This document shows, piece after piece, positions 47,391 through 60,413 of a stretch of 64,000 nt of DNA. The position numbers were made by a program, and so were the translations under genes. The notes below the pieces were generated by a model. The model searched no databases. It worked only from the letters and a program-made list of their open reading frames with translations, and was not told where the DNA came from. Where the stretch lies: positions 1 to 64,000 of the forward strand of contig CASEWB010000011.1 of assembly GCA_949291545.1 (NCBI GenBank), written 5' to 3'. Origin of the DNA: an uncultured bacterium (GTDB lineage Bacteria; Elusimicrobiota; Elusimicrobia; Elusimicrobiales; Elusimicrobiaceae). Within the stretch, counting starts at the first letter, position 1. Every line of letters begins with the position of its first letter.

Positions 47391-47909
47391 TTAGAAGCGC
47401 CCGTTGACAATGACCATCGCCGGGAACCAACCGTTTTCGGCAATGTTCAAGAGCCCGATTTGCAGCCCGTCAATGGTTTTGGCATAGTTGACAAAACCCA
47501 ATTGCAAGCCGTTCATATATTCGGCTTGGTTGAAGAAACCCCACTGCAAGCCGGTGGCGTTGTGCATAGACAGGTTGACTAAACCCAATTGGGCGCCGAT
47601 AATATCTTCGTTTTTAGCCAACAACCCCAGCTGGGCACCTTTTACCTGGTTGGCCAGGTTGATAATCCACGCCATGCTGACGCCGTTCAGTTCATACTCG
47701 GTCTGGGCGAACAGGAAATCTAACTGCACCCCCGTAACGGTAGCCGTTTTAGACGCAATACCAAAATCCAAACCGGTAATATCGTGAATGTTGCCCGGTG
47801 TGGCAATGGCAATATCGTCCCACAAGGAGAGTTTCAAAACTCCCGTTTCCGCCGAGGCGGGCAATACGGCAGCTATCAATAACGCTGCAAATACAGCTAG
47901 TTTTTTCAT
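47391..47909 (-). CDS. Surface GLQLG-repeat protein (LA_2272-like)
   Basis: An exported 172-residue protein with signal peptide MKKLAVFAALLIAAVLPASA. The rest consists of about seven short repeats of 16-21 residues built on G-x-Q-L/I-G-L/F-V/L-N: VTGVQLDFLF, VKGAQLGLLAKN, IIGAQLGLVNLS, ATGLQWGFFNQA, MNGLQLGFVNYA, IDGLQIGLLNIA. Such repeats occur in the LA_2272 surface-repeat family of spirochetes and other bacteria, likely forming a beta-rich or barrel-like surface protein ending VNGRF. The function is unknown. A strong GGAGG site precedes the ATG and a terminator follows, so it is monocistronic. Confidence 0.8.
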   Translation of the reverse strand: MKKLAVFAALLIAAVLPASAETGVLKLSLWDDIAIATPGNIHDITGLDFGIASKTATVTGVQLDFLFAQTEYELNGVSMAWIINLANQVKGAQLGLLAKNEDIIGAQLGLVNLSMHNATGLQWGFFNQAEYMNGLQLGFVNYAKTIDGLQIGLLNIAENGWFPAMVIVNGRF

Positions 47910-48034: not shown

Positions 48035-49537
48035 ATGAAAATAAACCTGGTTTCTTTTAATCCTTTATCTGCAGATATTGCCGGCAATGCGGCTTTAGTG
48101 CGCCAGCTGTTGCGTGCACCGGCCCCCAAGGCGGATTTGTTGGTCCTGCCGGAGGCCGCTCTTTGCGGGTGCCCTCTTTTTGATTTATTTGACGATAAAC
48201 ATTTGGCGGCGCAAAATGCCGCCGCCTTAAAAGAACTGGCCAAAGAAACCAAGGAAACCGCCGTAGTGTTAGGATATATGGAGCGGCAGAAAGGGGAGCC
48301 TGTCACCGCGGCTGCTTTTATATATAAAGGAAAAATCACTAAAATTTTTGACGCACAGACCCTATCTTTTAAGGGCAAAGAAATCCAGTTTGTGTTAGGA
48401 ACCCCCGAAGAAACCCAGCCCGATCCGGACGCGGACGCCACTGTATTTTTGACGGCGCGCCCATATTTAAAGGGCAACATTGCCCCGCGTGTGGAAGCGC
48501 TTAAAAAAGCGGCCAAAAAATACGCCAAGCCTATGGTTTTATGCAACCTTTTGGGCGGTGGGGACGGCATGATTTTTGACGGCCTGGTGGCCGCGGCTGA
48601 CAAAAAAGGAACTTTGGTGTTGGCGGGGGAACCTTTCCGCGAACAGGTGCTTACCTTTGACACCGAAGAAAAACACGAGCCTATCTCATACAAAAAACCT
48701 CAGCCGGAAGAATTGATTGAGGCACTGGCGTTTGGTTTGCGCGATTATGTGCACAAAAGCGGTATGGATAAAGTGGTATTTGGGTTAAGCGGGGGGATTG
48801 ACTCGGCTTTTACTGCCGCCCTGGCTGCCAAAGCATTGGGGGGAGAAAGCGTGTATTGCGTTTCGCTTCCTTCCTATTGTACCAGCGATTTGAGCAAAAC
48901 CTTGGCAGGGCAGCTGGCGCGCCGGTTGGGCGTAAATTTGGAAGAAGTCGGCGTAGTGCCCGCTTTAGCCAGCGTAAAAGAAGCGATGTCGCATATTGTA
49001 TCGCACCCCAAAGACGCCACGGAACAGGAACTTCAGTCCCGCCTGCGCACCACCATTTTGGGCGCACTGGCCAGCGAGTATAAGGCTATGCTTATTTCTA
49101 CCGACGATAAAAGCGAATGCGCCGTGGGCTCTTTTGTGCTGTACGGGGACGCCGGCGGCAGTTTGCAGCCGATAGGCGATTTATACAAAAGCGAAATTTA
49201 TGAATTGGCCGAATATTTAAACAAACAAGGGGAAATTATCCCGCGCGGTATTATAGAAAGAGCGCCCACTTCGGAACTGAGCCCCAATCAAAAAGACGAG
49301 GACCAGCTGCCGCCTTATGCTGTGTTGGACAAAATTTTGCGGGCTTACCTGGAAGAAGGCTTAACCGCGGCGGATATTGCCCAAAAATACCGCATCAAAG
49401 CGGCCGTAGTGCAGGACGTGCTTTCCCGCGTGAACCAGGCCGATTTAAAGCGCCGCCAAACGGCCCCTGCTTTACAGGTGAGCGCCCACCCGTTTGCTTC
49501 CGTGCTGCGGCCGATTATCAAAAAAATTAATTTATAA
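48035..49537 (+). CDS. nadE: NAD+ synthetase with degenerate glutaminase domain
   Basis: Final enzyme of NAD synthesis, amidating deamido-NAD. It has 500 residues. The C-terminal synthetase domain is intact, with ATP-pyrophosphatase motif FGLSGGIDSAFTAALA (near residue 250), ISTDDKSECAVGSFVLYGD and ELSPNQKDEDQLPPY. The N-terminal ~230 residues are a nitrilase-like glutaminase domain. Its Glu (E40 in LPEAAL) remains, but the usual nucleophile motif (x-C-E-D-x-W) is replaced by a Pro/Asp-rich stretch TPEETQPDPD with no cysteine nearby. Ammonia-dependent synthesis is therefore likely. A GAGGTG site and a TAAAAT box at about 48010 precede the ATG. The subtilase gene begins 2 nt after the stop. 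Confidence 0.92.
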   Translation: MKINLVSFNPLSADIAGNAALVRQLLRAPAPKADLLVLPEAALCGCPLFDLFDDKHLAAQNAAALKELAKETKETAVVLGYMERQKGEPVTAAAFIYKGKITKIFDAQTLSFKGKEIQFVLGTPEETQPDPDADATVFLTARPYLKGNIAPRVEALKKAAKKYAKPMVLCNLLGGGDGMIFDGLVAAADKKGTLVLAGEPFREQVLTFDTEEKHEPISYKKPQPEELIEALAFGLRDYVHKSGMDKVVFGLSGGIDSAFTAALAAKALGGESVYCVSLPSYCTSDLSKTLAGQLARRLGVNLEEVGVVPALASVKEAMSHIVSHPKDATEQELQSRLRTTILGALASEYKAMLISTDDKSECAVGSFVLYGDAGGSLQPIGDLYKSEIYELAEYLNKQGEIIPRGIIERAPTSELSPNQKDEDQLPPYAVLDKILRAYLEEGLTAADIAQKYRIKAAVVQDVLSRVNQADLKRRQTAPALQVSAHPFASVLRPIIKKINL

Positions 49538-49539
49538 TT

Positions 49540-50544
49540 ATGCGCCGCGGAGTTTTGTTTCTGTTGCCGTTTTTGTTTGCACAGGCAGTGTGCGGGGCCG
49601 GTACGGTGTTTTTGGGGCCCACGCATCTGCATATAGACGAAAACGGCAATTTTGCACCCGCAGAAAAATCCTCCTCCGCCACACCGTTTGATAATTTGTG
49701 GGCATACCGCGCCCTGCCAACCGATAAAAAACTGACGGGCCTCGGCGTGAAAATTGCCTTGGCGGACAGCGGCATCACGCCCCACCCGGAACTGAACGGC
49801 AAGCAAATTATGGGGCAGGATTTTACCCTCTCCGGCACGCTATCCGATTTTAAGAACCACGGCACCGGTGTAGCCGCCATCATAGGCGCGCGCGGCGTAC
49901 GGTTTACGGGCGTAGCGCCCCAGGCGGCTATTTGGGCTTATAAAATAGACGACGGCAGCCGTTTGATTTCGCCCCAAGCCGCCGCTAATGCGCTGCATAC
50001 CATTCTTGCTTATAACGAAGCTAACCCTTCCGACAAAATTACAGTTATAAATTTAAGCTACGGTATTTCCGGCGGGGGCTCTCTCCCGCTGACTAATGCC
50101 ATTAACCGCGCGCACGATTCGGGGGTGACGGTGGTGGTGCCGGCAGGCAATTTTGGTTATCCGGGGGTTTTTTATCCGGCCAATTTGTCTACGGTGCTGG
50201 CGGTGAGTGCGCTGGCGGCGGACGGGGAACACCTGTACGCTAATTCCGCCTACGGGCCGGAAGTGGATTTTACGGCCCCGGGGGACCGCGTGTATACGGC
50301 CTCTGCCGATGGGGATTATACGCTAATGAGCGGCACTTCGGCCGCGGCGGCTTTTGTGTCGGGGGCGGCTGCGTTGGCGGTGGAAGGATTAACCAAAAAA
50401 TTGGGCCGCTACCCCTCCGCCGAAGAAGTAAAAGACGCTTTAAAAGCGGCCTCCGCCAAGGTGCCCGGCTTGCCCGATGCCGCCCAGGGCAACGGCCTGA
50501 TTGATATAACAAAACTGGAAGAACAACTGGGGAACCCTAAATGA
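49540..50544 (+). CDS. Secreted subtilisin-like serine protease (S8)
   Basis: Subtilase of 334 residues with signal peptide MRRGVLFLLPFLFAQAVCGA. The catalytic triad is visible: Asp76 in KIALADSGI, His107 in KNHGTGVAAIIGARG, and Ser267 in LMSGTSAAAAFVSG. The oxyanion-hole Asn is in VVVPAGNFGYPG. The pro-region between signal and catalytic domain is short (about 50 residues). Ser-proximal SGTSAAAA differs slightly from the common SGTSMAAP (Met and Pro are replaced), so it is a divergent but apparently active member. It begins 2 nt after nadE and overlaps the MATE gene by 4 nt. It may act in the periplasm or outside the cell. Confidence 0.92.
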   Translation: MRRGVLFLLPFLFAQAVCGAGTVFLGPTHLHIDENGNFAPAEKSSSATPFDNLWAYRALPTDKKLTGLGVKIALADSGITPHPELNGKQIMGQDFTLSGTLSDFKNHGTGVAAIIGARGVRFTGVAPQAAIWAYKIDDGSRLISPQAAANALHTILAYNEANPSDKITVINLSYGISGGGSLPLTNAINRAHDSGVTVVVPAGNFGYPGVFYPANLSTVLAVSALAADGEHLYANSAYGPEVDFTAPGDRVYTASADGDYTLMSGTSAAAAFVSGAAALAVEGLTKKLGRYPSAEEVKDALKAASAKVPGLPDAAQGNGLIDITKLEEQLGNPK

Positions 50545-55451: not shown

Positions 55452-57203
55452 ATGCTTCCGAACCCCAAGAACACAACGAAAGTGAATGTTCCGGCGGAAA
55501 GTAAACTGTCGGAAGCATTTTCCCTGCTTACCAAAAAACCGCTTATTACCTTAGCGGTTATTGCGGCGGTTCCAATCGTGCTGATGCTGGCTTTTACTTT
55601 TAAAAGCGGCTACACGCCCAGCAGCAAAAACAGTAAGTACGATAAAATTGTCGTCGTTAAAACTCCAACCGAAATTGCCGACGATGCTACCGACGCTCTG
55701 CAAAAAAAAGATACCCAAACTTTTCTAAATATCTTAAACGAGCAAACCAAGAACGACCCGAATATCGTCAACAGCAAAGGGGACCCGCTTATTGTGGCGG
55801 CGGCAACGTTTGGCAATTTGGAAGCCGTCCAGCAGCTTATTTTAAACGGGGCCGACGTCAACAAGGCCAACTCGTTTACCAAAGATACTGCCTTGCTGCG
55901 CAGCCTTTACGGCAATTTCCCGCAGATTACCCGCTTGCTGGTGTATTCCGGGGCGGATATTAATGCGAAAAACAACTACAACCATTCTCCTATGTATTTG
56001 GCTTTGGAAAAGAAACAGGCCGAATTTATTGATTTGTTCCTTTCCAGCGGGGTGCGGGAAGGGCTGAATACCGCCTATCTTTTCCGCGCCAGTGCCCAAA
56101 AAAACCCGATGGGCGTGTTGGCTATGTTGAAGGGCGGGATTGACCCAAACGTCAAAAACGAAAAAGGCAACACGCCGCTTATTATTTCCGCTTCGTTGGG
56201 GGACGTGCCCAGTGTGCAGTCCTTGATGGCTTACCGCGCCGATGTAAACGCCGCCAACAACGATGGCAACACTGCTTTAATTTACGCGGCTCGCTACAAT
56301 CACCCGGAAATTATCCGCGAACTTTTAAAACCGCAGACGATGCAAGCCCCGTTGGACGTAAATATGCAAAACAAGGCCGGGCAAACGGCTTTGTATTGGG
56401 GGGCCTCCAAAGGGTACGAAGAAGTAGTGCGCCGTTTGCTGGCGGCGGACGCGGACCCGACCATCGCCGCTAAAGACGGGTTGATCCCGTATATGGTGGC
56501 CCGCAAAAACAACCGGGGGCAGGTGCTTAAATGGTTTGATATGGATTTGACGCAAGTGAAAAACAGCGTGATCGAACAAGACAATGCGGCCCTGATTGCA
56601 CAGGCCAAGGTGGAAGGACGCGAATTGCCGCAATTGGCGGAGCAGACCACGGAAAAACCCGTGACGGAAGCGGATATTTTTACCGCCGCGCAGACGGGGG
56701 ATATGGAACTGGCCAAAAAAGTGATTGCCTTAAATAAGGCGGTGGTATTCAATAAAAATAAATCGGGCGAAACGCCGCTTTTGGTAGCTGTGGAAAATGG
56801 CCAAAAAGAAATGGTGACGTATCTGGTGAATAATATGTCGCGCTTGTTTGAATCGTCGCCTAAAGGGAATGCTTTCCATATTGCCGTGCGTACTCAAAAT
56901 ATGGATATGCTGCGGCATTTGGTCTCGCTGGCCCGCCAAGAAGGGCGGCTGGCCATGATGTTGGAATATCGTGTCGCCCCGCAAAAAAATGCCCAACCTA
57001 TGACGCCGCTTGGCTTTGCCGCGTTGTTATGCAATAAAGAAATCTACGATTATTTGGTATCTATTGGGGCCAAAACAGGCGGTATCAGCAAAAACGATAA
57101 TATTTTGGGGTACAAGACGCCAGCTGATATTATGGCCCAATGCAAAGCAAAAGTGTCCCAAGCCAAAACGCTCACCCGCTCGGCCCCGCGTCGCAGCCGT
57201 TAA
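55452..57203 (+). CDS. Membrane-anchored ankyrin-repeat protein
   Basis: A 583-residue protein. An N-terminal cytoplasmic stretch (about 30 residues) is followed by one transmembrane helix (LITLAVIAAVPIVLMLAFTF), then a large domain of about 11-12 ankyrin repeats, probably periplasmic by the positive-inside rule. Clear units are DPLIVAAATFGNLEAVQQLILNG-type, NTPLIISASLGDVPSVQSLM, NTALIYAARYNHPEIIRELL and QTALYWGASKGYEEVVRRLL. Ankyrin repeats mediate protein binding; no catalytic domain is seen. AGGAGA precedes the ATG, 11 nt after rnc, so it may be co-transcribed with the acpP-rnc operon. A paralogous ankyrin protein is at 59.4 kb. Confidence 0.9.
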   Translation: MLPNPKNTTKVNVPAESKLSEAFSLLTKKPLITLAVIAAVPIVLMLAFTFKSGYTPSSKNSKYDKIVVVKTPTEIADDATDALQKKDTQTFLNILNEQTKNDPNIVNSKGDPLIVAAATFGNLEAVQQLILNGADVNKANSFTKDTALLRSLYGNFPQITRLLVYSGADINAKNNYNHSPMYLALEKKQAEFIDLFLSSGVREGLNTAYLFRASAQKNPMGVLAMLKGGIDPNVKNEKGNTPLIISASLGDVPSVQSLMAYRADVNAANNDGNTALIYAARYNHPEIIRELLKPQTMQAPLDVNMQNKAGQTALYWGASKGYEEVVRRLLAADADPTIAAKDGLIPYMVARKNNRGQVLKWFDMDLTQVKNSVIEQDNAALIAQAKVEGRELPQLAEQTTEKPVTEADIFTAAQTGDMELAKKVIALNKAVVFNKNKSGETPLLVAVENGQKEMVTYLVNNMSRLFESSPKGNAFHIAVRTQNMDMLRHLVSLARQEGRLAMMLEYRVAPQKNAQPMTPLGFAALLCNKEIYDYLVSIGAKTGGISKNDNILGYKTPADIMAQCKAKVSQAKTLTRSAPRRSR

Positions 57204-57297: not shown

Positions 57298-57336
57298 TTG
57301 CATATGCAGCGGATTGATTCAAAAAGGATATTAAAA

Positions 57337-57852
57337 ATGAAAAGTTTTACTACACGCCGTTTAGGCGGTTTTACACTGATAGAATTGTTAGTGGTAGTGT
57401 TGATTATCGGCATTTTAGCGGCTATTGCGTTGCCGCAGTATCAAGTGGCGGTAGACAAGGCCCGTTTTACCGAAGTAATTAACATGACACATGCAATCAA
57501 AAATGCGATGGAAGTTTTTTATTTGGCCAATGGATCGTATCCGTTGCCTGGAGGAGCATGGGAACTTGATATTGATCTGCCGGATAAATGTGAACGCGTA
57601 AAAGGCGACAATACATTTAATTGTACAGACTCGTGGTACGATATGGGGAATACAACTGTAGACGGATATAATGGGGCACGCTATGCGGAAGGTGAGAAAG
57701 CCGCGCGCAACCGATATCGCATAATGACAGATCGTTCCGGTACGCCGGGGAAACGATATTGTTTTGCTTTGGATAAATCAGACCGCGCCCGCCGCTTATG
57801 CAAAGCCCTGGGCGGCACCAGTCAGGGTGGATTTTCTTTTGAATTGCCTTAA
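57337..57852 (+). CDS. Type IV pilin-like protein behind a T12 tract
   Basis: Prepilin of 171 residues. The leader MKSFTTRRLGG is followed by FTLIELLVVVLIIGILAAIA, giving cleavage after Gly11 with Glu at mature position 5. The body has NAMEVFYLANGSYPLPGG, common in pilins of this type, and four cysteines including KCERVKGDNTFNC and YCFAL...LCKALGG. The start at 57337 is preferred because AAGGA lies 8 nt upstream. An in-frame ATG at 57304, 6 nt after a TAAATT box, would add 11 residues if the mRNA is leaderless. Its promoter region is shared in sequence with the pilin at 15.9 kb. Confidence 0.88.
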   Translation: MKSFTTRRLGGFTLIELLVVVLIIGILAAIALPQYQVAVDKARFTEVINMTHAIKNAMEVFYLANGSYPLPGGAWELDIDLPDKCERVKGDNTFNCTDSWYDMGNTTVDGYNGARYAEGEKAARNRYRIMTDRSGTPGKRYCFALDKSDRARRLCKALGGTSQGGFSFELP

Positions 57853-59255: not shown

Positions 59256-59438
59256 AATTCCCTCTATAAAAAAATAAACGGAGTACTCGTATATTGTATC
59301 TTTTCTAAGAGGTTGTTTCAATGTGGAAACCGGTTAGAAAAATCTTTTTATGCCTTATTATATCTGTAGATGTAAACAGAAATTTTGCGCAAAAACGTAT
59401 TTTGGTGTAAAATGAAATATAGTCCAACAGGAAATTTT

Positions 59439-60413
59439 ATGGAAGAAAGAAATTTGGCATTTATCCGCAAAGCAACAGAAGGGGATGCTGCCTATATTCA
59501 AACCCATTTGCCAGATACTGACGATTTAACGCGCCAGCGTGCTTTTGTGTATGGAACTGTTCCTGTACAAAAAATATTGTTGGAAGCCGGTGTTAACGTA
59601 AATGCCACTCCTTGTTTTGAGGGAAATCTTCCCAATTTCCCCGCATGGGGTTACTTGGAACCCCACTACGGCGTTTCTGCACACGCTACCGCCACCGCTT
59701 TGCTGCGGGCGTGTGTTATGGGAAATAATGAGCAGGCGCGCTTTTTAATTCAGCAAGGGGCGGATGTGAACATAGCTGGGCAGCTGGATGACGAACCAGA
59801 CAAGGATACTTGGTTGTCTGTACTGGACGGTTCTTTTGCTCTATGGGCGGCTATTAGTAAGAAAAACGCACCGCTGATGAGTATGTTACTTGAAGCGGGG
59901 GCGGACGTAAACTGGCCGCAAAACCTTAGTTTACCCTATAATGCATTGTATGCGGCCTTGCGTACGGGGGATCTTTTTTTTGCAGAGTTATTGCAGCAAT
60001 ACACCGCTAAATTTACAGATTCTAAATCCCGTGCGCTATTGAGTGCGCTAGCGGTTCTTAAACACGGGGATATCCCTGCGCTTAAGGAAATTTTGGGTGC
60101 GGAGGACCCCATGTTTATTTTTTTCGGAGAGAGTTTTTTACTCTTTTGCTTGCGGCGTGGGTATTTAAAGTATGCAAAATTATTATTGGCGGCAGGGGCA
60201 GACCCAGATGCAAAAGACACCTTAGGGCAAGCGCCTTTAACTGTAGCCTTAAACAACAAAAGTAAAGAGAGCTTAGAAATGCTGTTGGCGGCGGGGGCTG
60301 ATACGGGAATAAAAGATGTTTTCGGGCGGGATCTAGTGCAGCAGGCCTTAGATAAACAAGCGGGAGAAGATATTGTAGATAGGTTGAAAAATATCATCGG
60401 TAAACATCATTAA
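59439..60413 (+). CDS. Ankyrin-repeat protein (cytoplasmic)
   Basis: A 324-residue protein with no signal peptide or membrane segment. Six or more ankyrin repeats are visible: VPVQKILLEAGVNVNATP, ATALLRACVMGNNEQARFLI, ALWAAISKKNAPLMSMLL followed by EAGADVN, and LRRGYLKYAKLLLAAGADPD, then QAPLTVALNNKSKESLEMLL. The start at 59439 is chosen because CAGGAAA lies upstream; an in-frame ATG at 59412 is an alternative. It could be a cytoplasmic regulator or an effector; nothing in the sequence decides this. The A+T content is higher than in the neighbouring genes. Confidence 0.85.
   Translation: MEERNLAFIRKATEGDAAYIQTHLPDTDDLTRQRAFVYGTVPVQKILLEAGVNVNATPCFEGNLPNFPAWGYLEPHYGVSAHATATALLRACVMGNNEQARFLIQQGADVNIAGQLDDEPDKDTWLSVLDGSFALWAAISKKNAPLMSMLLEAGADVNWPQNLSLPYNALYAALRTGDLFFAELLQQYTAKFTDSKSRALLSALAVLKHGDIPALKEILGAEDPMFIFFGESFLLFCLRRGYLKYAKLLLAAGADPDAKDTLGQAPLTVALNNKSKESLEMLLAAGADTGIKDVFGRDLVQQALDKQAGEDIVDRLKNIIGKHH

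Follow-up and report, generated by a model that had tools for sequence, protein, structure and literature searches.

The nadE gene at positions 48035-49537 (plus strand) of the window, the stretch of 64,000 nucleotides analysed here, most probably encodes a working NAD synthetase that is fed free ammonia, derived from a glutamine-dependent NadE2 and keeping its pseudo-glutaminase domain as a folded part of the protein (probability approximately 0.8). The glutaminase site is lost, both domains are conserved, the same short form is distributed across the genus, and no stand-alone nitrilase-family partner was found in the genomes searched for one. We infer that the protein is active, that ammonia is its donor and that the dead domain has a role in packing. 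NaAD would be adenylated in the synthetase domain and then attacked by ammonia from solution, and the dead N-terminal domain would be kept, probably, for the packing of subunits and domains and for shaping the route of ammonia to the synthetase site. Free ammonia is accepted in vitro by two-domain NadE, according to passages of PMC6946656 and PMC3376133, and the latter also contains the argument that single-domain NadE use ammonia in vivo. The short form would operate beside an intact glutamine-type NadE1 in the window's genome, and as the only NadE found in five relatives. Ammonia is high in the gut, a setting that would make its supply plausible; Elusimicrobia were reportedly placed in the chicken gut in one study and in the rumen in one record.

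Gene and domain layout

The open reading frame is intact (ATG start, 500 aa) and was assigned to the NadE2 (PRK13981) lineage of two-domain NAD synthetases with profiles and a synthetase-domain tree. The pseudo-glutaminase domain, of nitrilase fold, spans approximately residues 1-215 (48035-48679, plus strand), as delimited with an AlphaFold2 model and structure alignment. The NAD synthetase domain (residues 228-475; 48716-49459, plus strand) had been described as complete in the initial annotation, and this was borne out: the PF02540 (NAD_synthase) match covers positions 2-241 of 242 (210.8 bits, E 2e-62) and SGGIDS is present. Alignment by eye with intact enzymes indicated that the C-terminal extension typical of two-component NadE, a signature of that type according to part of PMC3376133, is retained (49451-49534, plus strand).

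The CN_hydrolase (PF00795) match of the window protein is restricted to residues 8-98 (E 2e-6), and intact NadE are some 45 residues longer than this protein. The window protein scored 170.4 bits with TIGR00552 (cut-off 63.65) and fell short of the NF010588 (PRK13981) equivalog cut-off (384.4 bits against 479), a profile with which the intact sister-family relative L028 scored 626.6 bits. The closest solved structures by sequence are all two-domain NadE (5kha, 4f4h and 3n05). Having two domains, the protein falls outside the single-domain class (type N, synthetase domain only); in the predicted structure, the N-terminal nitrilase-fold domain is fused to the synthetase as in NadE-Gln (type F). 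The protein was filed as a NadE variant outside the glutamine-dependent class.

Loss of the glutaminase site

Intact enzymes have a Cys-Glu-Lys triad, a second Glu and a YRE loop, which contacts glutamine and gates the tunnel (sections of PMC6946656). Of all these elements, the window protein retains only Glu40, the triad Glu (codon 48152-48154, plus strand, by alignment). The nitrilase-like domain with Glu40 is therefore as initially annotated, and the position is Glu in 31/31 short-form rows that cover it (two rows do not).

The position of the nucleophile is occupied by Gly122 (codon 48398-48400, plus strand). This position was assigned because the preceding strand aligns without gaps to intact relatives (KGKKIAITVC in intact enzymes, KGKEIQFVLG in the window protein), in a register set by eye, MAFFT itself having put a gap at the nucleophile strand. 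Among the 33 short forms covering the position, 27 have Gly, two Asp, two Glu, one Thr and one Leu; none has Cys (0/33), and the alignment proposed as a check on the initial annotation thus placed no conserved Cys there. The missing Cys noted in that annotation was confirmed, but its placement inside TPEETQPDPD was not, as TPEET comes after Gly122. The loss is also wider than had been described, extending to the catalytic Lys and to the greater part of the active-site loop. The loop that carries the catalytic Lys and the second Glu in intact enzymes is missing at residues 106-111 (48350-48367, plus strand, by alignment); it amounts to approximately 21 residues, counted by eye. At the column of the catalytic Lys, none of the 33 short-form rows has a residue; L076, which was trimmed at an internal Met by the script and does not cover the site, stops short of this column. 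In intact NadE of the sister family, E, K and C are all present in 12/12 rows, from which L033 (site itself lost) and L036 (truncated) were left out.

Predicted structure

An AlphaFold2 model was built with 30 relatives (mean pLDDT 80.8, pTM 0.83). The N-terminal domain has a pLDDT mostly of about 90, with weaker stretches at residues 41-60 and 171-180, and the synthetase loops 358-376 and 412-418 have values below 50. The whole model aligned with the intact two-domain NadE 3n05 (Z 33.6, 463 residues), and its N-terminal domain with nitrilase-fold amidases (Z 21-24, 205-211 residues). From these structure alignments, the dead domain is therefore predicted to keep its nitrilase fold, the outcome of the structure prediction that had been proposed with the initial annotation.

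Distribution in the genus

Comparison with related genomes, also proposed there, recovered the same short dead form in 34 of the 66 genomes of the genus (gut Elusimicrobiota), the other 32 being without it. The matched stretch is free of stop codons in all 34, two of which are truncated at a contig end; this recurrence without stops ruled out a sequencing error or a broken gene. The 66 genomes were sorted by hand into NadE patterns and 62 were classified. The short form occurs together with an intact NadE1 in 23 genomes (the window's genome included), with a single-domain NadE in six and alone in five. Intact NadE1 alone was seen in 16 genomes, NadE1 with Cys replaced by Gly in ten (one also with a single-domain NadE) and a single-domain NadE alone in two; two of the single-domain cases were checked against NCBIfam (TIGR00552). 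The four unclassified genomes are 78-85% complete, and one has a NadE1 fragment. No intact glutamine-type NadE is visible in 23 of the 62 classified genomes. Two genomes gave additional matches: there are four to PF02540 in G088, and in G022 the NadE1 with Gly is accompanied by a single-domain NadE and one more weak match.

The second NadE of the window's genome (G000), which lay outside the DNA seen for the initial annotation, is intact and of the glutamine type: it was found on the minus strand at L007:5336-7267 and contains PELSLTG, PKTHLPNY and VEICEDLW. The short copy therefore need not be essential in that genome. The short form is the sole NadE found in G080, G033, G074, G016 and G008 (85-96% complete). 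Each of these five has one other PF02540 match, weak (22.7-26.6 bits) and above the Pfam cut-off, which was considered as a second NadE and rejected, being MnmA in 5/5. NadD is present in 10/10 genomes tested, the five among them.

Nearly all of the genomes are drafts, and rpoB was not found in 18/66 (8/36 of the better ones), the window's own included, so single gene absences are weak evidence. It is unlikely that all five short-form-only cases are assembly gaps.

Could the short form still depend on glutamine, with another protein as the source: a glutaminase acting in trans, or the intact NadE1 that the cell also makes, through leaked ammonia or mixed assemblies? An intact NadE1 does accompany the short form in 23/34 carriers, and two-subunit NadE with separate glutaminases exist according to part of PMC3376133. 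The five short-form-only genomes speak against it, having neither NadE1 nor, in a nitrilase-family search, any stand-alone nitrilase-type protein except one of Lnt size. Their PF00795 matches are the NadE and one protein of 541-548 aa each; the identity as Lnt was established for the counterpart in the window's genome, and the five others were assigned by size alone. In the window's genome, too, the PF00795 search found no stand-alone nitrilase-type glutaminase beyond the Lnt-sized protein. Furthermore, NadE1 is octameric and NadE2 dimeric, in separate clusters (sections of PMC7196632). Supply by a partner protein is thus considered improbable. Ammonia dependence with a scaffold domain, one of the options raised in the initial annotation, is the best reading of a lost site, a modelled fold and the lack of a stand-alone PF00795 candidate; it is from these that we infer the use of ammonia.

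Glutamine synthetase (PF00120) was found in only 42/66 genomes of the genus, and five of those in which it was not found are 98-99% complete. It is missing less often where the short NadE is present (6/34 against 17/28 classified genomes, Fisher p 6e-4, uncorrected for kinship). Loss of an intact glutaminase was not significantly associated with a missing glutamine synthetase (11/23 against 12/39, p 0.28).

Selection on the two halves

Ratios of mean dN to mean dS (Nei-Gojobori) were calculated for 13 close short forms. The synthetase half gave 0.045, from 76/78 usable pairs, and the dead half 0.133, from 74/78. For ten NadE1, the values were 0.077 for the synthetase half and 0.089 for the N-terminal half (45/45 pairs). 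As dS is high, near saturation in many pairs, the comparison of the halves within the gene outweighs the absolute values: mean dN of the short form is 0.161 in the dead half and 0.057 in the synthetase half, which is about three times slower. Purifying selection acts strongly on the synthetase half and more loosely on the dead half, which is still constrained; the gene is not decaying.

These values bear on the idea that the short form is redundant, retained beside NadE1 while it slowly decays. The roughly threefold faster dead half and the 32/66 genomes that do without the short form would fit such a copy; the lack of internal stops in all 34, dN/dS well below 1 in both halves and the five genomes in which it is the only NadE found do not, and we regard slow decay as highly improbable.

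Other cysteines near the site

Cys46 (codon 48170-48172, plus strand, by alignment) was considered as a relocated nucleophile. It stands six residues after Glu40, at the canonical Tyr position; in the M. tuberculosis enzyme, Tyr58 borders the glutamine site, six after Glu52 (part of PMC6946656). The position is Cys in 30/31 short forms (Val in L077) and Tyr in 12/12 intact relatives. A second Cys lies two residues ahead of the Gly122 position in 10/33 relatives; the other 23/33 lack it, as does the window protein. A relocated nucleophile is the least credible of the readings, given that the glutamine-holding loop has gone together with the catalytic Lys and second Glu, that L077 has Val at position 46, and that the upstream Cys is missing from the window protein itself.

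Parallel losses in NadE1 and in a sister-family genus

Within the genus, the nucleophile Cys is replaced by Gly in 10/49 NadE1 read (a NadE1 fragment in G013 was not counted), and no other replacement was seen. The ten are in G036, G004, G011, G029, G021, G015, G067, G061, G022 and G032 (loci L064, L066, L068, L158-L160 and L169-L172), and their Gly codons are GGG (3), GGA (3), GGC (2) and GGT (2). Inspection by eye found the loop altered in 9/10 and near normal in that of G022.

In a NadE1 tree from which the site columns were omitted, six changes between Cys and Gly are needed, and well supported branches require five of them. A single shared loss for the ten cases was rejected (AU p 4e-96, quick method). 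A tree of rpoB, covering 44 of the 66 genomes, also requires six changes for the NadE1 state; it includes 44 of the 48 genomes with a match, as four short pieces were omitted, and the G083 sequence was cut at an internal stop. Both trees were made with a quick method and the change counts carry no direction; the direction of loss, from Cys to Gly, was assumed on the ground that intact relatives have Cys. The ratio of dN in the N-terminal domain to that in the synthetase domain is higher in the ten Gly-bearing NadE1 (median 1.95) than in 33 intact ones (1.46; p 5e-4), in a test with 33 of 38 intact rows (five showed too little divergence) and pairs that are not independent. The dead NadE1 occurs in 0/23 genomes with the short form and in 10/26 without it (Fisher p 8e-4); reduced to independent pairs, this association gave five pairs with none against and was not significant.

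Genus g10 of the sister family is a probable further lineage of NadE Cys loss, judged from its sequences. The Cys is lost in 2/2 genomes, L033 (G052) and L157 (G090): the replacement is Gly in L157 and, by MAFFT, Ser in L033, which has also lost the Glu. The AU test did not reject a single loss shared by the short form and g10 (p 0.14), although g10 is placed with its own family at 100. As a control, 90 loci of the class outside the genus and g10 were taken, namely the 30 best-scoring loci of the class search (which found NadE in 183/196 genomes) and 60 picked by hand, together a non-random sample; the Cys is retained in 88/88 NadE that are covered. In the synthetase tree, the short form lies closest to L272 (G172; same family, other genus), which is on a long branch. 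L272 retains the Cys, with CAD for CED and an altered loop, and is possibly an intermediate.

The constant Gly in NadE1 may relieve backbone strain at the nucleophile elbow once catalysis is no longer selected. Alternatively, it may open the site to ammonia. A broader proposal extends the latter idea: gut Elusimicrobiota would be amid a repeated adaptive switch from glutamine to ammonia, made by several routes (the dead NadE2, the Cys to Gly changes in NadE1 and the single-domain NadE). Gly at the nucleophile position of NadE1 would turn the former glutamine pocket into an open entrance through which ammonia reaches the tunnel, which would be why no other replacement is seen there. We hold this tentatively, as doubtful.

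Relation to known enzymes

NadE are sorted by layout, single-domain enzymes being classed as ammonia-dependent, and the octameric NadE1 and dimeric NadE2 as glutamine-dependent (parts of PMC7196632); all previously characterised two-domain NadE used glutamine efficiently, as stated in a passage of PMC3376133. With the NadE2 type (PRK13981/NF010588; 5kha, 4f4h, 3n05), the window protein shares domain order, synthetase domain, C-terminal extension and overall fold; unlike it, the window protein is without the Cys, the Lys and the active-site loop, and stays below the profile cut-off (384 bits against 479). With single-domain ammonia-dependent NadE (E. coli type, type N), it shares the lack of a working glutaminase and, probably, ammonia as donor; it differs in retaining a whole nitrilase-fold domain and in grouping with two-domain NadE. 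A similar history is described for vertebrate CPS1, in which the ancestral glutaminase domain was likewise kept after loss of the Cys and external ammonia is used (sections of PMC4655335 and PMC7657897), as would be the case for the short NadE. CPS1 is an unrelated enzyme with a Cys-His-Glu triad, and human CPS1 has Ser in place of the Cys, whereas the short NadE has Gly.

In the open-access literature, judged by titles and the starts of abstracts, no description of a dead glutaminase domain in a two-domain NadE was found. Because whole two-domain groups have lost the glutaminase site, annotation of the donor by layout is probably wrong for these groups. Intact, partly decayed and dead versions within one genus form a natural series for the conversion of an amidotransferase to ammonia use, which also bears on why a dead domain is retained. 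The short NadE would give vertebrate CPS1 a counterpart in bacteria.

Other genes in the window

A 172-aa protein is encoded at 47391-47909 (minus strand); it has repeated LQ-G-VN-like motifs, recognised by eye, and matches no Pfam family at E 0.001. A subtilase-family peptidase (PF00082) is encoded at 49540-50544 (plus strand), starting two bases past the nadE stop codon. Ankyrin-repeat proteins are encoded at 55452-57203 and 59385-60413 (both plus strand; Ank_2 E 2e-50 and 2e-19, respectively), and a pilin-like protein with the N-terminal methylation motif PF07963 at 57298-57852 (plus strand).
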